Part shown: in pieces, positions 12,855 to 22,628 of the stretch | Position numbering within the stretch: position 1 is the first letter of the stretch | How the letters are laid out: every line of letters begins with the position of its first letter | Program-made: the position numbers and the translations under genes | The notes under the pieces: generated by a model | Database searches by the model: none | Told to the model about the DNA's origin: nothing | What the model saw: the letters and a program-made list of their open reading frames with translations, nothing else | Assembly (NCBI RefSeq): GCF_032393985.1 | Contig: NZ_CP135918.1 | Location: 4,154,001-4,218,000 of the forward strand | DNA: 64,000 nucleotides | Origin: Fischerella sp. JS2 | GTDB taxonomy: Bacteria; Cyanobacteriota; Cyanobacteriia; Cyanobacteriales; Nostocaceae | Direction of reading: 5' to 3'

Positions 12855-15800
12855 GTTGCAACTTACACTAATCCCTATTAGGGATTGAAACCCAGTAGTC
12901 TGTGTTTTGTTCTCTATCATCCATTATGTCAGTTGCAACTTACACTAATCCCTATTAGGGATTGAAACAATCTACCAAAAGATAGAGAAGCATCGGTTTG
13001 AGTTGCAACTTACACTAATCCCTATTAGGGATTGAAACGGTTACTATACAATCTCCGATGTTTTGCCTGGATCGGTTGCAACTTACACTAATCCCTATTA
13101 GGGATTGAAACAGAAAAATTCCAGGCCCTGGGGTTGCTCCGCGACGTTGCAACTTACACTAATCCCTATTAGGGATTGAAACAAGTACGGTATAGGAGAC
13201 GTTTCGATCCAACATCAGGTTGCAACTTACACTAATCCCTATTAGGGATTGAAACCATTCAAACCTCCTTAATCAACGTCCCTACGAATGGCTGTTGCAA
13301 CTTACACTAATCCCTATTAGGGATTGAAACCGCTTTCCCATTAATTCATTGACCATCTTCTCAAGAGTTGCAACTTACACTAATCCCTATTAGGGATTGA
13401 AACTTGCCTAGACCGTGCTATGATCTAGATATCCAAGTTGCAACTTACACTAATCCCTATTAGGGATTGAAACAATCTATCTAGAGGTAGATAACAGGGA
13501 GATAGTCGCTGGTTGCAACTTACACTAATCCCTATTAGGGATTGAAACGCTGTGCCCCCCCAGGGACTGGCGTTTTTCTGACCTGTTGCAACTTACACTA
13601 ATCCCTATTAGGGATTGAAACCACCAGAGATGTCTGGATGAATTGCAGATATCGTATGTTGCAACTTACACTAATCCCTATTAGGGATTGAAACTTGGTC
13701 ATGCCCACCCCACTCATCACCAGCGGGGTCAGTTGCAACTTACACTAATCCCTATTAGGGATTGAAACTCCAATGTTCTCCTTAGATCGTGCTATGATCT
13801 AGAGTTGCAACTTACACTAATCCCTATTAGGGATTGAAACACTTCGTCCTGTTCCCCTACCCCAATAGTGGGCTGCGAGAGGTTGCAACTTACACTAATC
13901 CCTATTAGGGATTGAAACATCCCCACTCCACTCATCACTGCCGGGGTCAACAAAGTTGCAACTTACACTAATCCCTATTAGGGATTGAAACAATACGTCT
14001 GCAGATAGATAGTCGCGGAGCAACCCGTTGCAACTTACACTAATCCCTATTAGGGATTGAAACTGCGTGGAATGTTGTCTTGGCATGTTTCTCTTTCAGT
14101 TGCAACTTACACTAATCCCTATTAGGGATTGAAACTCCTGACCTAAGAGCCAGAAAACCCAGGCCCTGGTTGCAACTTACACTAATCCCTATTAGGGATT
14201 GAAACGTTGTGTTGTCACACCGTCTGCTTCTGTATCCATGTTGCAACTTACACTAATCCCTATTAGGGATTGAAACGGAAAAACGCAGGTTCTGGGGTTG
14301 CTCCGCGACGTTGCAACTTACACTAATCCCTATTAGGGATTGAAACAAATAAGATACAAACGCAGATTTGACCCCACGTGTTGCAACTTACACTAATCCC
14401 TATTAGGGATTGAAACTTCTGGGTGGGCGCATTTGGACTGGTCTGAGTCAGGTTGCAACTTACACTAATCCCTATTAGGGATTGAAACTCAGCATCGAAC
14501 CTGCTGACACTAGCAGTTTCCCGTTGCAACTTACACTAATCCCTATTAGGGATTGAAACAGCCTCTGTGCTGTCTGCGATGAATGTGTACCAAGGTTGCA
14601 ACTTACACTAATCCCTATTAGGGATTGAAACGGATTGGCGGATGGTGGCGATGTTGAGAAGTTCAGTTGCAACTTACACTAATCCCTATTAGGGATTGAA
14701 ACCCATTTCTCGTGTCTCGACTGACCAAAAACTTGTAGAGTTGCAACTTACACTAATCCCTATTAGGGATTGAAACGCATCTCTACAAGCAGTTATCGCC
14801 CAACTCATTGCGTTGCAACTTACACTAATCCCTATTAGGGATTGAAACAATCCGGATGGTTCAACAACAATTCATGAAATAGTAGTTGCAACTTACACTA
14901 ATCCCTATTAGGGATTGAAACAAGGTTGAACATCGGAGACTGAATAGTAACTTCCACGTTGCAACTTACACTAATCCCTATTAGGGATTGAAACAAGAAG
15001 GAGCTAGGGACTGCAGCAATGATAGGTGCATAAAGTTGCAACTTACACTAATCCCTATTAGGGATTGAAACTTTGGCTTAGGCACTGTACCTTCCACCCC
15101 AGAACCCCAGGGTTGCAACTTACACTAATCCCTATTAGGGATTGAAACCAGGTACTAGAAAGATGATGAAAGAAAAGTACGCCGTTGCAACTTACACTAA
15201 TCCCTATTAGGGATTGAAACCGTACTTCCCCCTTCTCGCTGCCGTTGACTGTACGGTTGCAACTTACACTAATCCCTATTAGGGATTGAAACAATTTAGC
15301 TTTCTCGCCAGAGTACAACCCCTTCACGGTTGCAACTTACACTAATCCCTATTAGGGATTGAAACGTGCTAAAGAGTAGACAGCTTGGGATGAGCGAGAG
15401 TTGCAACTTACACTAATCCCTATTAGGGATTGAAACAAGTGGTGCTGGTTCCAGAAGAAGAGACACCCGCTGTTGCAACTTACACTAATCCCTATTAGGG
15501 ATTGAAACGACCGAGTACATTGCTATAGCTGATGCACCCAATCAAGTTGCAACTTACACTAATCCCTATTAGGGATTGAAACTACCTTTTAGGATTGCGT
15601 TGGAAAGGCTCACCAATCGTTGCAACTTACACTAATCCCTATTAGGGATTGAAACAGCTTCAGCTTCAGCTTCAGCTGCGATAGTTTCAAGTTGCAACTT
15701 ACACTAATCCCTATTAGGGATTGAAACATATTCAGGAGTGGGGGCGATAAGGTGAAAAAGGTTGCAACTTACACTAATCCCTATTAGGGATTGAAACTAG

Positions 15801-16371
15801 ATTTTCTTGTGCTTTGAACCCCATATCTTGTTGCAACTTACACTAATCCCTATTAGGGATTGAAACAAGGAATGCTCTAACTCTCACAGGCTCGGAAGTA
15901 ATACGTTGCAACTTACACTAATCCCTATTAGGGATTGAAACTCCTATAAGATTGACCGCAATTCGGGTACTACTTTTCAGTTGCAACTTACACTAATCCC
16001 TATTAGGGATTGAAACTTCAAAGAACTCTTGAGCCAGTTGGGGTAAAGTTGTTGCAACTTACACTAATCCCTATTAGGGATTGAAACAAAAGCAAGCCAA
16101 AGTAAAAGAACAAATAAGAAAGTGTTGCAACTTACACTAATCCCTATTAGGGATTGAAACCCAACTGACTTGCATCGAACTGAGTCTTAGAGAAAATGTT
16201 GCAACTTACACTAATCCCTATTAGGGATTGAAACGTGATGCAAACATTGCCTGGACTCGCAATATGGTTGCAACTTACACTAATCCCTATTAGGGATTGA
16301 AACTCCGTCATAGGATCCTCTTGCTGGACACCAAAAGGTTGCAACTTACACTAATCCCTATTAGGGATTGA

Positions 16372-17125
16372 GGCGTTGCTGAATAAAGGTATGTTTTAGG
16401 CAGGTAAGGGAACAGAACGATATTTGAGGTAGTGCAATAACAATCGAACAGAGTATCTCAGCATTTCCTCAGTTTTGGAATAACATAAAGTTTTACGATG
16501 AAGACGAGCCAAATAATGTCTAAGCCTTGTGTTTTCATTTTCGACTCGTGTCATGTAGGTCTTACTCACAATTTGGTCACCATCAGGAACAAAACAAGGG
16601 TAAACAGGGTATCCATCTGTGACGTAAAAATAACTCTGCCAACACTGGACAATGTTCCATAACTGTTGGAAAGTAGTCGAACTACGATCACCTAAAACCC
16701 AAGCAAGAATACCTTGAGTAAAGTGATTTACCGCCGTCCACAACCAGATTTTATTTTTTGAACCAATAAATGTTTCTAATTCATCTAGTTCTCCCACCTG
16801 CGGAATTTCCTTTGAATTTGGTGTATCCGCCAATTGTGTACCCACTCGTTTAACCCAATGAATAATGGTAGTATGATGAACGTTTTTCACCCTTTCAATT
16901 CCACGAAATCCCATACCATTGACGTACATTTTTAGGCATTCTTGTTTGATTTCATCCGAGTAGCCCCTGGGTGGTTTATAGACATCAATGAATTGACGAC
17001 CACAATCACAGCAAATGTGATTCTGTTTACCTCTTTTCTTTCCATTCTTACGGTTATGACAAGATCCACAGCGTGGACATTCCATGATTAATTGACCTCA
17101 ATTCATACCGCTATTATGCAACGCC
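16372..17125 (-). mobile_element. IS1-family insertion sequence, copy 1, inside a CRISPR repeat
   Basis: The element is 754 bp with inverted ends GGCGTTGCTGAATAAAGG and (complement) GGCGTTGCATAATAGCGG. It is inserted 34 nt into the 49th repeat; GGGATTGA at 16364-16371 is duplicated at 17126-17133 (8-bp target duplication), after which the repeat finishes with AAC. It carries one transposase gene. Copy 2 at 52077-52832 matches except for two extra A in one homopolymer. Clean ends and target duplication imply a recent insertion. Confidence 0.94.
16396..17085 (-). CDS. IS1-family transposase, intact
   Basis: 229 residues in a single frame. The N-terminal zinc ribbon uses MECPRCGSCHN and CCDCGRQF (two Cys pairs). 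It is followed by a helix-turn-helix (residues 45-85, MGFRGIERVKNVHHTTIIHW) and then the DDE-type catalytic part: an Asp/Glu pair in QVGELDELETFIG, Asp in YVTDGYPVYP, and the C-terminal VENENTRLRHYLARLHRKT where the final Glu and basic helix lie. In IS1 itself InsA and InsB' are joined by -1 frameshifting on an A run; here an A6 run leaves both parts already in one frame. It acts on the IS ends at 16372 and 17125. Confidence 0.93.
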   Translation of the reverse strand: MECPRCGSCHNRKNGKKRGKQNHICCDCGRQFIDVYKPPRGYSDEIKQECLKMYVNGMGFRGIERVKNVHHTTIIHWVKRVGTQLADTPNSKEIPQVGELDELETFIGSKNKIWLWTAVNHFTQGILAWVLGDRSSTTFQQLWNIVQCWQSYFYVTDGYPVYPCFVPDGDQIVSKTYMTRVENENTRLRHYLARLHRKTLCYSKTEEMLRYSVRLLLHYLKYRSVPLPA

Positions 17126-18815
17126 GGGATTGAAACTTGCTAGATGTAGGGGAGAGACAAGTTGTTACTCTGAAGTTGCAACTTACACTAATCCCTATTA
17201 GGGATTGAAACGTGTAATCAGTTGCTGGAATCTTAAGAACATTATGTTGCAACTTACACTAATCCCTATTAGGGATTGAAACCTACCTTTATGTACTTTC
17301 CTGTTGTTTGCTGAGATGTTGCAACTTACACTAATCCCTATTAGGGATTGAAACGAAAGAACTTATGAACCCATACCTTGCTGGTGATTGTTGCAACTTA
17401 CACTAATCCCTATTAGGGATTGAAACAGGTCGAATGATGCCACTAACACTGACGATTTGTTGCAACTTACACTAATCCCTATTAGGGATTGAAACATTGC
17501 ATTAGACATATTTACTTTACCTCCTAATTGTTGCAACTTACACTAATCCCTATTAGGGATTGAAACAAGCTTGTGTAAGCTGTCGATGGTAATGCTGAGG
17601 GCAGTTGCAACTTACACTAATCCCTATTAGGGATTGAAACGTTAGTGGTAGCAGTGGAGGTGGAGAAGTGATTTTGTTGCAACTTACACTAATCCCTATT
17701 AGGGATTGAAACCTTGTTTACATCTATTAATAATCTGGCTAACTTGCGTTGCAACTTACACTAATCCCTATTAGGGATTGAAACCGGTTCTCTGGTGAAG
17801 CGATCGCTCGACGGGAGCTGTTGCAACTTACACTAATCCCTATTAGGGATTGAAACGGGCTTTGGCAGTAATGTGAAGCCCCTTTTTTTTAGTTGCAACT
17901 TACACTAATCCCTATTAGGGATTGAAACATTGCATTAGACATATTTACTTTACCTCCTAATTGTTGCAACTTACACTAATCCCTATTAGGGATTGAAACA
18001 AGCTTGTGTAAGCTGTCGATGGTAATGCTGAGGGCAGTTGCAACTTACACTAATCCCTATTAGGGATTGAAACCAGTGGCTCTGTAATAACCTCCGGCTC
18101 AACTGGAAAGGTTGCAACTTACACTAATCCCTATTAGGGATTGAAACAATTACAGTGATCCTTTGAACACTCCCAACTCGCCCACTGTTGCAACTTACAC
18201 TAATCCCTATTAGGGATTGAAACAAGACGGAAAATTCTTTTGAGTCGGGGGTGCAAAAAAAGTTGCAACTTACACTAATCCCTATTAGGGATTGAAACAA
18301 TGGGGAGGTGAGCAAACCAATATAACTGTTGATATGGTTGCAACTTACACTAATCCCTATTAGGGATTGAAACATCTAGTGAACGACCACACCCCAGGTC
18401 TGGCGTTTCCTGGTTGCAACTTACACTAATCCCTATTAGGGATTGAAACGGCAGCATGGTACAAAACCAACAGATACGGCAGGGCAAAGTTGCAACTTTC
18501 ACTAATCCCTATTAGGGATTGAAACAAAAAAGCTAATAACCCGCAGGTTACGGGAAGCACTGTTGCAACTTACACTAATCCCTATTAGGGATTGAAACGC
18601 CTCACTTACCACCGGAAAAATCACATCTTTGATTGTTGCAACTTACACTAATCCCTATTAGGGATTGAAACCGATTACGGTTGCCTGTGGATATTTCCTA
18701 GCAAGTTGCAACTTACACTAATCCCTATTAGGGATTGAAACTACAGTATGCTGTACGGGGGATAGTACCAATTGAGTTGCAACTTATACCAATTCAAAAA
18801 AAATTTAAGGGCAAT

Positions 18816-19100: not shown

Positions 19101-20342
19101 TCAAGTGGTATACTCAGCGTTAATTTTCACGTAGTCATAACTTAAATCACAACCCCAAGCTATACCGGAACCATGACCGTTACCAACACTTACAGAAATT
19201 AACACGCTATCTTCCTGAAGATACGCACCCGCAGCTGCTTTTTGTAGATATTCAGTTGCTGCTTTGCGATCAAAAGCTAGGGGTTGACCATTTTCCATCA
19301 TTAAAAAATTCCCTAGCTGAATTCTCAGGTTCTCTAGTTCAAAAGGCACACCTGCACGTCCCGCAGCCGCCGCAATGCGTCCCCAGTTAGGATCACGGCC
19401 AAAAATCGCAGATTTGACTAAAGATGAACTTGCAATAGTTTTGGCAATTTGACGTGCTGCTTGTTCATCTTGTGTGCCAGTGACTTGCACTTCTATCAAA
19501 CAAGTTGCGCCTTCACCATCACGAGTGATCGCTTTTGCTAAATGCTGACATACTGCTGTTAACATCGCTTCTAATTTTTCGGCTTCGTGTCCTATTTCAG
19601 TAATTGCTGGGGTGCGGGATTCACCATTAGCAAGGGCGATCAAACTATCATTAGTACTCGTGTCGCCATCAACGGTAATCGCATTAAAACTTTTATCTGC
19701 TGCCCTACTTAACATCTGTTGCCAAAGATGAGGGGAAACGGCGGCATCACAAGTGACAAATGCTAGCATTGTAGCCATATTTGGATGAATCATCCCAGAA
19801 CCTTTGGCAATACCACCAATTCTAACTGGGCGATCGCCGATCATTGTTTCTAGGGCAATTGATTTTGGCACTAAGTCTGTAGTAATAATTGCACCGGCGG
19901 CAGCATCGGAACCAGTTTCTGATAGTGCTGCTACTAGTTGGGGGATTCCGGCTTTGAGTTTATCCATCGGTATGCGCTGCCCAATTACCCCAGTCGAAGC
20001 CAGTAGCACAGAGTCACTGGAGATATTCAACGCTTGAGCGATCGCCATTGCAGATTCTAGGGTATCTAGCCAGCCTTGTTCACCTGTAGCAGCATTTGCC
20101 TGTCCAGCGTTGCAGAGAATGGCACGGGCACTTTGTTTATATTGCAGACGTTGACGACAATAATCTACACACGCCGCCCTCACTTGAGAGGTTGTGAATA
20201 CTCCGGCAGCGATCGCTTCTACATCTGATACTATCAACGCTAAATCTGGCAACCCCGAAGGTTTTAATCCTGCCTTAATTCCAGCTGCCCGATATCCTCT
20301 CGGTGCAGTTACACCACCAGTAATTTCATGCCAGTCTGCCAT
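19101..20342 (-). CDS. argJ: ArgJ: glutamate N-acetyltransferase / amino-acid N-acetyltransferase
   Basis: Bifunctional ornithine acetyltransferase and N-acetylglutamate synthase of the cyclic arginine pathway. From the ATG at 20342 (AAGGGG just upstream) it has 413 residues, the normal length; the open frame extends 31 codons further but that part is low-complexity intergenic sequence. ArgJ cleaves itself before a conserved Thr into two chains, and the site is present as KGSGMIHPNMATML, with Thr near residue 191. FGRDPNWGRI near the end of the beta chain and the conserved N-terminal GGVTAPRGYRAAG are also typical. It lies downstream of the three small-RNA units and reads in the same direction. 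Confidence 0.96.
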   Translation of the reverse strand: MADWHEITGGVTAPRGYRAAGIKAGLKPSGLPDLALIVSDVEAIAAGVFTTSQVRAACVDYCRQRLQYKQSARAILCNAGQANAATGEQGWLDTLESAMAIAQALNISSDSVLLASTGVIGQRIPMDKLKAGIPQLVAALSETGSDAAAGAIITTDLVPKSIALETMIGDRPVRIGGIAKGSGMIHPNMATMLAFVTCDAAVSPHLWQQMLSRAADKSFNAITVDGDTSTNDSLIALANGESRTPAITEIGHEAEKLEAMLTAVCQHLAKAITRDGEGATCLIEVQVTGTQDEQAARQIAKTIASSSLVKSAIFGRDPNWGRIAAAAGRAGVPFELENLRIQLGNFLMMENGQPLAFDRKAATEYLQKAAAGAYLQEDSVLISVSVGNGHGSGIAWGCDLSYDYVKINAEYTT

Positions 20343-20489
20343 GATTTTCCCCTTGCAACTATTACCCGGCTGACTGGCGATTATATCAGTTATTAGTCCT
20401 TTGTCATTTGTCGTTTGTCCTTTATCCTGACTCACAACTCTAGAGTAAGAGTTCTATTCCAACTAAATAATGACCAATGACTAATGACC

Positions 20490-20544
20490 AAAAAAAAGAG
20501 AGAGCCACTTGGGCAGCTCTCCAGATCATCAGGGTGCATCTATA
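20490..20544 (-). ncRNA. Candidate small RNA, unit A of a tandem array
   Basis: On the minus strand: TTGCCC (20573-20578), 16 bp, TATACT (20551-20556), then a predicted start near 20544. The transcript would read TAGATGCACCCTGATGATCT, then a strong stem GAGAGC...GCTCTC and a T8 run ending at 20490, which is an intrinsic terminator. No reading frame. The same unit occurs at about 20711 and 20932. Confidence 0.62.
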
Positions 20545-20710
20545 TAACATAGTATACCATGTTTGGGGTGAGGGGCAATACACCTCAATGAACTTTTTTT
20601 GTTTCTAGTTAACTCACTGGATGTAACAAAGTAATAGGGAAAAATTAGGAAAAATATCTTGTGTTGATAGTTGCCAAATCATACTGCAATCGCAACAAAT
20701 AGCAACAAAT

Positions 20711-20762
20711 AAAAAAAGAGAGCCTTTTGGGCAGCTCTCCAGATCATCAGGGTGCATCTACT
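20711..20762 (-). ncRNA. Candidate small RNA, unit B of a tandem array
   Basis: Same layout as unit A: TTGCCC, 16 bp, TATATT (20769-20774), the conserved body TAGATGCACCCTGATGATCT, then GGAGAGCTGCCC, a changed loop (AAAAGG instead of AAGTGG) and GCTCTCT7. The loop change keeps the stem, which speaks for selection on structure. Spacing from unit A is about 218 bp. Confidence 0.62.
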
Positions 20763-20931
20763 TATCACAATATATCATATTTGGGATGTGGGGCAATACC
20801 CCCTACTAAGTTTTTTATCAAAATTTCCTGAAAAATCTCCGTAAATGCACTATTAGGGAGAACAACAGTTTGTTTTGCCATTTTAATTCGTCAAAGATAC
20901 CCAGTAAATAACCTGAGTAAAAATTAATCAT

Positions 20932-20985
20932 AAAAAAACAGAGAGCTACTTGGGCAGCTCTCCAGATCATCAGGGTGCATCTAAC
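20932..20985 (-). ncRNA. Candidate small RNA, unit C of a tandem array
   Basis: TATACT at 20992-20997, predicted start near 20985, the conserved body TAGATGCACCCTGATGATCT, stem GAGAGC/GCTCTC with AAGTA in the loop, then a T7 run (after one intervening G) at 20932-20938. The -35 region is less alike than in A and B. Spacing from unit B is about 223 bp. A separate GGGGTGTCACCCCC hairpin at 21014 lies upstream. Confidence 0.6.
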
Positions 20986-21152
20986 TAGCACAGTATAGCA
21001 TTATGGGCATGAGGGGTGTCACCCCCCTTTTTGAATTGATTTATTAAAAAATTGTAAAAGTATCGGCAAGGGATCGGGGAATAGGGGGACAGGGGGACAA
21101 GGGGGACAAGAGAAATATCACACTCCTCACACTCTCCCCACCTCCCCAACCC

Positions 21153-22628
21153 CTAAACATTCAACTTCTTCTCTACCAATTGGTTAGTCAGCTTGGGGTC
21201 AGCGCGTTTGTTGGTCTTTTTCAGGACTTGTCCGACAAAGAAACCTTTAAGATTGACGTTACCGTTGCGGTATTTCTCTAATTCTTTGGGGTTTGCAGCA
21301 ATCACTTCATCGATGATGGGTTCTAGGACGCTGGGGTCAGTGATTAACTCTTGACCTGCAAACGCTTTTTCGGGAGAGACACCACTCAGCAAATCGGGCA
21401 ATTTTTCTTTAGCTTGGGCGTTGCTAATTTTGCCTTTTTCAATTCGACTGATGACATCAGCGAGATTCGCAGGTGTAAGAGCAATTTCGGTAATCCCGAG
21501 TTTATTTTTGTTGAGGTAAGCAGCGATATCTTGAGTAATCCAGTTAGCAGCAGCTTTAGGGTTAGCACCACAAGCGATCGCCGCTTCAAAATACTCAGCA
21601 GTAGCACGTTCCTCAGTCAAAACTCGCGCATCGTAGGTTGAAAGCCCCAATTCATCTTCGTAGCGACGGCGTTTTTCGGCTGGTAGTTCCGGTAATTCAG
21701 TTCGCCATTCTAATAATTGTTCTTCTGAGACTTCAATTGGTGCTAAATCTGGTTCTGGGAAGTAGCGATAATCGCTAGAACCTTCTTTAGTTCGCATACT
21801 AACTGTACGTTGAGCGCTTTCTTCCCACAACCGGGTTTCTTGGATAATGCGTTCACCCGCTTCTATAGCTGCTATTTGACGTTCAATTTCGTATTCAATT
21901 GCCTTTTGGATGGCGTTGAACGAGTTCATATTTTTAATTTCTACTTTCGTGCCAAACTTTTCTTGACCGATAGGACGCACAGAAATATTCACATCACAGC
22001 GTAGTGAACCTTCTTGCATATTCCCATCACTGACACCGAGATAACGCATAATCCGGCGTAACTCTTGAGCGTATTCCGCAGCTTCTTGTCCAGAACGTAA
22101 ATCTGGTTCTGAGACAATTTCTACCAAAGGCACACCAGCACGGTTGTAGTCTACCAAAGAATAGGAAGAACCAGACAGGCGATCGCTACCCGCGTGTACC
22201 AATTTCCCTGCATCTTCTTCCATGTGCAGACGAGTGATACCAATTTTTTTACGAACAGGATTCCCATCTTGGTCTACCAACTCAATTTCTAACCAACCGT
22301 GTTCGGCAATGGGTAAATCATATTGGGAAATTTGGTAATTTTTGGGAAGGTCAGGATAAAAATATTGTTTGCGGTCAAACTTGCTGTATTTAGCAATTTG
22401 ACAGTTTAGTGCCAAACCTGCTTTGACAGCGTATTCTAAAACTTTTTCGTTGAGTACCGGCAATACCCCTGGCAAACCCATGCAAACAGGGTCAATATTA
22501 GTATTGGGGTCAGCCCCGAATTCTGTGGAACTACTAGAGAAAATTTTAGTTTTGGTATTCAGCTGACAATGGGTTTCTAGACCAATTATCGCTTCGTACT
22601 CTGTTTTTACTGTTGTAGCAGCAGTCAT
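21153..22628 (-). CDS. gatB: Aspartyl/glutamyl-tRNA(Asn/Gln) amidotransferase subunit B
   Basis: 491 residues, the standard GatB length. GatB, with GatA and GatC, converts Glu-tRNA(Gln) (and Asp-tRNA(Asn) in many bacteria) to the amide form; GatB binds the tRNA and contains the kinase-like site. Diagnostic segments: IIGLETHCQLNTKTKIF, DPVCMGLPGVLPVLN, KFDRKQYFYPDLPKNYQISQ and SLVDYNRAGVPLVEIVSEPD. The C-terminal helical and YqeY-like domains end GQVLKKTNKRADPKLTNQLV. In the cradle domain EIKNMNSFNA and SSDYRYFPEPDLAP are present. It stands alone, as usual in cyanobacteria. Confidence 0.97.
   Translation of the reverse strand: MTAATTVKTEYEAIIGLETHCQLNTKTKIFSSSSTEFGADPNTNIDPVCMGLPGVLPVLNEKVLEYAVKAGLALNCQIAKYSKFDRKQYFYPDLPKNYQISQYDLPIAEHGWLEIELVDQDGNPVRKKIGITRLHMEEDAGKLVHAGSDRLSGSSYSLVDYNRAGVPLVEIVSEPDLRSGQEAAEYAQELRRIMRYLGVSDGNMQEGSLRCDVNISVRPIGQEKFGTKVEIKNMNSFNAIQKAIEYEIERQIAAIEAGERIIQETRLWEESAQRTVSMRTKEGSSDYRYFPEPDLAPIEVSEEQLLEWRTELPELPAEKRRRYEDELGLSTYDARVLTEERATAEYFEAAIACGANPKAAANWITQDIAAYLNKNKLGITEIALTPANLADVISRIEKGKISNAQAKEKLPDLLSGVSPEKAFAGQELITDPSVLEPIIDEVIAANPKELEKYRNGNVNLKGFFVGQVLKKTNKRADPKLTNQLVEKKLNV

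Follow-up and report, generated by a model that had tools for sequence, protein, structure and literature searches.

A predicted family of small RNA genes between gatB and argJ, sibling to NsiR1 and preceded by HetR-type boxes, in Fischerella sp. JS2 and other HetR-bearing cyanobacteria

HetR is the master regulator of heterocyst development. Almost all filamentous cyanobacteria possess hetR and patX, and what these genes do in species that form no heterocysts has been called a mystery (PMC11298460). DIF1 promoters depend on HetZ, whereas HetR acts via its own sites (PMC7377430), such as the hetP site GAGGGGTCTAACCCCTC, for which GGGnnnnnCCC is the structural requirement (PMC4192349). The closest described small RNA is NsiR1 (RF02399), with HetR-dependent, heterocyst-specific expression from an array upstream of hetF in heterocyst formers. 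It is about 60 nt long and encoded in tandem copies, each with its own promoter and terminator (PMC9045159). A second relative, RNA162 of Limnospira indica, is 57 nt long and said to resemble NsiR1; it has expression values and, like the class described here, is an NsiR1-like RNA of a hetR-bearing species without heterocysts (PMC8400943). RNA162 may belong to either the DIF1 or the box class, and with that report NsiR1-like RNA beyond heterocyst formers is partly in print already (PMC8400943). The RNAs in Table 1 of PMC4734099 are all restricted to heterocyst formers. Within the open literature (subscription papers, including the 2010 NsiR1 paper, were outside its scope), we recognized no description of a small RNA (sRNA) class between gatB and argJ or of a HetR box on it.

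We analyzed a stretch of 64,000 nt of the Fischerella sp. JS2 genome, referred to here as the window, which carries three direct repeats on its minus strand with a spacing of 218 and 223 bp, in agreement with the preliminary description of three units about 220 bp apart. With ends inferred from the positions of the -10 box and the terminator, copy 1 spans 20491-20544 (predicted start near 20544; terminator stem 20522-20499 followed by a T-run), copy 2 spans 20711-20762 (start near 20762; stem 20740-20717, then a T-run), and copy 3 spans 20932-20985 (start near 20985; stem 20964-20939, then a T-run). The 20-nt body TAGATGCACCCTGATGATCT that had been described as conserved is exact in all three units, where the unbroken identical run is in fact 34 nt, and has no other exact site in the 7.02 Mb genome; allowing 3 mismatches gave two more places, compared to 0 for the reversed-pattern control. 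Terminator-like sites were found in all three units (7 in the 1-kb region versus 1.0 expected from shuffles), and the stem, previously reported as the six pairs GAGAGC/GCTCTC before a T-run, comprises 8 to 10 pairs. Fold energies relative to shuffled sequences gave z-scores of -1.90, -0.95, and -2.55 for copies 1, 2, and 3, respectively, clear only for copy 3. The predicted folds of copies 1 and 2 include a weak 5′ hairpin, and the identical 5′ region, described earlier as unpaired, is thus not wholly so.

The proposal that structure rather than sequence is kept finds no support in the three copies themselves, as their stem arms hardly differ. Across 74 aligned relatives, 94.1% of stem cells are paired and both-side changes occur in 16 cells versus 3.7 in shuffles; only 3 stem pairs show two-sided change, a number equalled in 65 of 500 shuffles and by slid controls, so that stem covariation is weak. 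The alignment showed that the most invariant part of the family is the 5′ seed rather than the terminator. Neither stem breakage nor loss of the -10 box is the rule among relatives, since TANNNT stands at a constant place in 169 of 189 unique units. A covariance model (R1), built from 74 of 172 distinct transcripts hand-picked for variety, matches all three window copies. Each copy thus displays the features of a trans-acting sRNA with an intrinsic terminator, namely a stand-alone promoter, a stem with a T-run, and no conserved frame. The earlier idea of a family of RNAs of about 55 nt is upheld by conservation, synteny, and the covariance-model search, and we consider it very probable that these predicted sRNA genes are real.

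The -10 boxes lie where they had been described, at 20551-20556 (TATACT, copy 1, with TG one base before), 20769-20774 (TATATT, copy 2, preceded by TG), and 20992-20997 (TATACT, copy 3), all on the minus strand; the first two were found by the promoter scan, from whose list the third is absent. TTGCCC does precede the -10 box by 16 bp in copies 1 and 2, but this supposed -35 element forms the right-hand part of GGG-N5-CCC, with a family consensus of approximately GGGGTNNNNCCCCTCA. The HetR-type boxes occupy 20570-20586 in copy 1 (GAGGTGTATTGCCCCTC; one core mismatch, 13/17 identical to the hetP site), 20788-20804 in copy 2 (AGGGGGTATTGCCCCAC; exact, 11/17 identical), and 21011-21027 in copy 3 (GGGGGGTGACACCCCTC; exact, 13/17 identical), on the minus strand and centered near -34 from the predicted start. 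The promoter site that marks the direct HetR regulon is therefore exact in copies 2 and 3 and has one core mismatch in copy 1. The same core is found in the HetR-box promoters of hetP and hetZ (PMC4192349). The hetP and hetZ boxes precede protein genes, while those in the window precede a small RNA, with constant spacing to the -10 box.

The box recurs at the same position in relatives. A locus scan covering 117 stretches found at least 80 loci; the set used here comprises 189 unique units from 98 loci, reduced from 216 by dropping duplicates and units with more than 3 mismatches to the selecting pattern. At -42 from the A of AGATGC, GGG-N5-CCC is exact in 99 of the 189 units and has at most one core mismatch in 151; when the register is allowed to vary from -43 to -41 these numbers become 107 and 169, respectively, leaving 20 units with 2 or more core mismatches even in the best register. 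Shuffled 75-nt upstream sequences gave 0.3 exact boxes anywhere and 0.9 with at most one mismatch in -47 to -40. Degenerate boxes are frequent at loci labelled Nostoc or Anabaena, to whose group the experimental models belong. In a panel of 30 HetR genomes chosen by hand (28 outside the order of the window), 27 have an exact box at -42 or -41, and the other 3 have TCCGGA. Genome-wide, the box pattern is not enriched in Fischerella sp. JS2 (77 places with at most 2 mismatches versus 105 for the reversed pattern), and the 26 HetR ChIP-seq regions listed in PMC4192349 name neither gatB nor argJ. The position of the putative HetR box over the -35 position suggests that HetR probably activates each copy directly, and we consider control of these predicted sRNA genes by HetR likely. 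Elsewhere in the genome, a near-perfect HetR-like palindrome (C1:6969482-6969500) lies about 206 nt upstream of an ORF that, judged by eye, encodes a putative group 2 sigma factor, and two protein fragments near HetR-like boxes gave no NCBIfam match.

We then compared the units with NsiR1. Rfam at its cut-offs gave no match at the three units, the 70 matches in the window being CRISPR repeats, and RF02399 scored them at 30.4, 27.0, and 22.1 bits (copy 2 being the best, 30.4) against a gathering cut-off of 39; in 20 relative loci, no unit reached this cut-off. The genuine NsiR1-type copies of this genome adjoin hetF at C1:18191-19711 (six above the RF02399 cut-off, two below), with a further copy above the cut-off outside that array at 670 kb (C1:670336) and two below it at 1.58 Mb (C1:1580366 and C1:1580523). 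While NsiR1 forms an array upstream of, and antisense to, hetF, which here lies near C1:19855, the window is at C1:4154001-4218000. The preliminary description had set the units apart from NsiR1 by place and spacing. The genuine NsiR1 array does lie elsewhere, but the NsiR1 5′ sequence GGUAGAUGCACCCUGAU is present here too, with UAGAUGCACCCUGAU identical in the three window units. The sequence around UAGAUGCACCCUGAU is common to the window units and all NsiR1-type copies of the genome, with mismatches in some, whereas their terminators are unlike each other. The common 5′ sequence, the unlike terminators, and the scores below the cut-off together indicate that the window units are siblings of NsiR1, outside the Rfam family as currently defined. 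They resemble NsiR1 in UAGAUGCACCCUGAU, in size, and in their tandem copies each with a promoter and a terminator (PMC9045159), and differ in the terminator itself, in a HetR-type box instead of DIF1, in their site between gatB and argJ, and in falling below the Rfam cut-off.

The DIF1 element (TCCGGA) was found in 0 of the 189 units of the gatB-side class. It is present in the NsiR1 copies of the genome at the array center and at 670 kb, and the seed-bearing RNAs at C1:670336, C1:1580366, and C1:1580523 have TCCGGA or CCGGAT in the promoter. Among 347 unique seed-bearing units (units without a T-run were left out), 43 have TCCGGA, 267 have a box with at most one core mismatch (168 exact, 99 with one mismatch), 37 have neither, and none has both. 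TCCGGA starts mostly at -39 or -38, the same promoter place as the HetR-type box, so that box and DIF1 are equally distant from the seed, at about -34 from the predicted start. HetR box and DIF1 thus appear as two interchangeable control elements at one promoter place in sibling genes. Given that DIF1 acts via HetZ and HetR via its own sites, the two sRNA classes would be under the control of two steps in a single cascade.

The units lie between two genes on their own strand that served as synteny anchors, gatB upstream (21153-22628, minus strand) and argJ downstream (19101-20342, minus strand; the longest ORF starts at 20435), both names being taken from the preliminary description. Short G-rich direct repeats of the GGGGGACA type are also seen between gatB and copy 3, at 21076-21108. 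Both anchors could be placed in 49 of the 98 loci, none of which has a unit outside the interval between gatB and argJ; in the other 49, gatB only was placed in 16, argJ only in 23, and neither within the available DNA in 10. The anchor genes are on the strand of the units in 137 of 137 cases. Among 27 loci of HetR genomes from other orders, gatB or argJ is within about 1.5 kb in 19 and neither is in 8. After removal of duplicates, there are 1 (46 loci), 2 (27), 3 (16), 4 (7), 5 (1), or 8 (1) copies per locus. This place, common to several families, bears on whether the units are ordinary NsiR1 copies moved to a second site, with no separate regulation or function. Such a move would account for a 5′ sequence and size the same as in NsiR1, for RF02399 matches with E-values of 0.0006 to 0.065 (in a small-region search), and for the further dispersed DIF1-type copies in the genome. 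It does not explain why terminator and promoter differ from those of NsiR1 or why neither the three units nor those of the 20 relative loci attain 39 bits, and a place shared across families indicates an old placement rather than a recent move; we consider this reading quite unlikely.

The same arrangement could also mean that the repeats act in cis, as promoters, terminators, or attenuators for argJ or the gatB end, given that they sit between two same-strand genes with intrinsic terminators facing argJ. Against this stand the separate promoter and terminator of each copy, the copy number of 1 to 8 per locus, a distance to argJ of anywhere between 70 and 1839 nt (72 measurements), the same-seed DIF1 siblings at other places, and a seed that is invariant when the terminator is not, making a cis-acting role improbable. 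A short leaderless peptide starting at the ATG within the seed is more improbable still. The preliminary description found no reading frame; open frames do start at the seed ATG (47 aa long in copy 2), and indels move the frame between relatives. Although almost every selected unit has ATG CAC CCT GAT unchanged and the frame is open in many cases, that invariance is imposed by the selecting pattern itself, the 3′ arm is in frame 2 in 148 units, frame 1 in 17, and frame 0 in 11, a stop occurs within 18 codons in 22 of 183 units, and only about 5 nt precede the ATG. We therefore retain the reading of the units as trans-acting sRNAs.

To place this class among cyanobacteria, its occurrence was compared with that of HetR. 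BLASTN detected the unit in 47 of 60 relatives, the 13 misses including one genome of the same genus (G002). Model R1 matched 208 of 388 genomes of the class at 1e-3 and 189 at 1e-5, and HetR (PF03574) is present in 185 of the same 388. At E ≤ 1e-5, R1 matched 178 of the 185 HetR genomes compared to 11 of the 203 lacking HetR (both, 178; RNA only, 11; HetR only, 7; neither, 192); at 1e-3, it matched 181 of 185 and 27 of 203, the additions being mainly weak matches in two families. These counts are uncorrected for descent, and common descent inflates all of them, so that a p-value for the co-occurrence is no sound test. Genomes with both RNA and HetR belong to 21 families, and 147 of the 178 are outside the family of the window. 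Four HetR genomes, 90 to 95% complete, gave no R1 match even at 1e-3 (G068, G098, G344, and G361). Low-scoring R1 matches in families f49 and f29 (E about 1e-4) were rejected as noise, one f49 locus that was examined having no seed. Some genomes, among them G043 and G144, contain several dispersed weak R1 matches (E 1e-5 to 1e-3), perhaps further seed-sharing RNAs with other terminators, such as L227, which has an exact-looking box. Among the loci listed, those of Symplocastrum, Microseira, Argonema, and Limnothrix carry gatB-side units. These four are non-heterocystous genera. Most HetR-bearing cyanobacteria, including lineages without heterocysts, carry the predicted gatB-side sRNA gene.

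The genomes that keep the RNA and lack HetR bear on what binds the box. In 6 of 10 such genomes the box is absent (five of one genus, and G052); an exact box is kept in the other 4 (G043, G065, G318, and G364), in which HetR was not found at E 0.1 and two of which are less than 96% complete. The eleventh, G274, was outside the box test, and its upstream region shows neither element. A different dimeric regulator might bind the box, GGG-N5-CCC being short and the box being kept in four genomes that lack HetR, three of them outside the f8 group; equally, HetR might repress instead of activate, as it is reported to raise some genes and lower others in Leptolyngbya BL0902 (PMC11298460). The tight co-occurrence with hetR, the position equal to that of DIF1 in the sibling promoters, and the loss of the box in 6 of the 10 HetR-lacking genomes argue for HetR, and we judge another regulator, or repression, unlikely. 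The sRNA and hetR may both track the filamentous habit.

A possible target of the seed is the hetF leader. The hetF gene of Fischerella sp. JS2 was identified by NF045509 (1419 bits versus a cut-off of 1200), and a hetF-family match was found in 30 of 30 genomes (29 with HetR), with 4 of them scoring above the family cut-off. In 14 of these 30, nine of them outside the order of the window, an NsiR1-type unit with TCCGGA lies upstream of hetF on the opposite strand. The antisense arrangement of NsiR1 and hetF thus extends beyond heterocyst formers, which suggests that both NsiR1 and its place opposite hetF predate heterocysts. Upstream of hetF, its sense strand carries 13 exact 14-nt complements of the seed and 1 with one mismatch, compared to 0 in shuffles and 0 on the other strand; in 16 of 30 genomes, no seed complement (at most 2 mismatches) was found within 1200 nt of hetF. 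In strain 7120, the hetF start site is 256 bp upstream, within nsiR1.2 (PMC8406250), so that the hetF leader there contains the seed complement. Duplexes of the three window RNAs with the hetF leader of their own genome gave -22.4, -25.5, and -22.8 kcal/mol versus shuffled means of -15.9 to -17.2, equalled by 2, 2, and 5 of 200 shuffles, respectively, while the central NsiR1 copy gave -28.8 kcal/mol, a value that none of 200 shuffles reached.

With NsiR1 genes placed antisense upstream of hetF, the seed complement is present in the hetF leader, which makes this leader the most plausible target in common. Partial regulation of hetF by other NsiR1 copies has been stated (PMC9045159) and suits action in trans; hetF-gfp was little changed when the nsiR1.1 promoter was altered (PMC8406250), an argument against hetF being a strong target. 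That the hetF leader is a true target of the gatB-side class is a prediction we regard as doubtful. Across the genome, 18 places match the seed complement with at most one mismatch over 13 nt; the majority are the sRNA genes themselves, and the remainder is about the number that we estimate to arise by chance. One perfect 12-base complement is positioned opposite the start codon of a glycosyltransferase gene within a cluster of polysaccharide type (C1:4449455; L315:7451-8668). This candidate was rejected, as the perfect match is seen in the own genome and G001, G002, and G006 and is absent from most of the other 18 loci examined, and the upstream sequences of the four genomes keeping it are similar throughout. 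The start region of a paralogous glycosyltransferase (L339, in G009) gave a duplex of -21.4 at a different site, with 0 of 100 shuffles as good.

On this sequence evidence, the reading that we find reasonably likely is that three genes for a trans-acting small RNA of about 52 to 54 nt are present here, copies from a family sibling to NsiR1; this RNA would be activated by HetR and work by a shared seed. HetR would bind a box overlapping the -35 position in the promoter of each copy, where NsiR1 copies have the DIF1 element, and the invariant 5′ seed UAGAUGCACCCUGAU(G) would base-pair with the leaders of mRNAs, while the 3′ half would serve mainly as an intrinsic terminator. If the hetF leader is a target, a HetR - sRNA - HetF loop would be closed. 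We suggest, with somewhat less than even confidence, that the sRNA is a direct output of HetR that is ancestral and perhaps more widely kept than any other; in the time before heterocysts, HetR would have driven the gatB-side class directly and NsiR1 via DIF1, with hetF and a small number of other mRNAs as the targets of both, and heterocyst formers would have inherited and amplified this circuit. If true, this would give a concrete first answer to the role of HetR in cyanobacteria that make no heterocysts, in which an sRNA gene that tracks hetR and has a HetR-type box at a fixed position offers a directly testable HetR output.

The window also contains a CRISPR-DR5 array of 70 repeats at 12855-18741. 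Between the repeats at 16267-16303 and 17175-17211, this array is interrupted by an ORF of 229 aa (16396-17085, minus strand) that, read by eye, looks like a putative insertion-sequence transposase.
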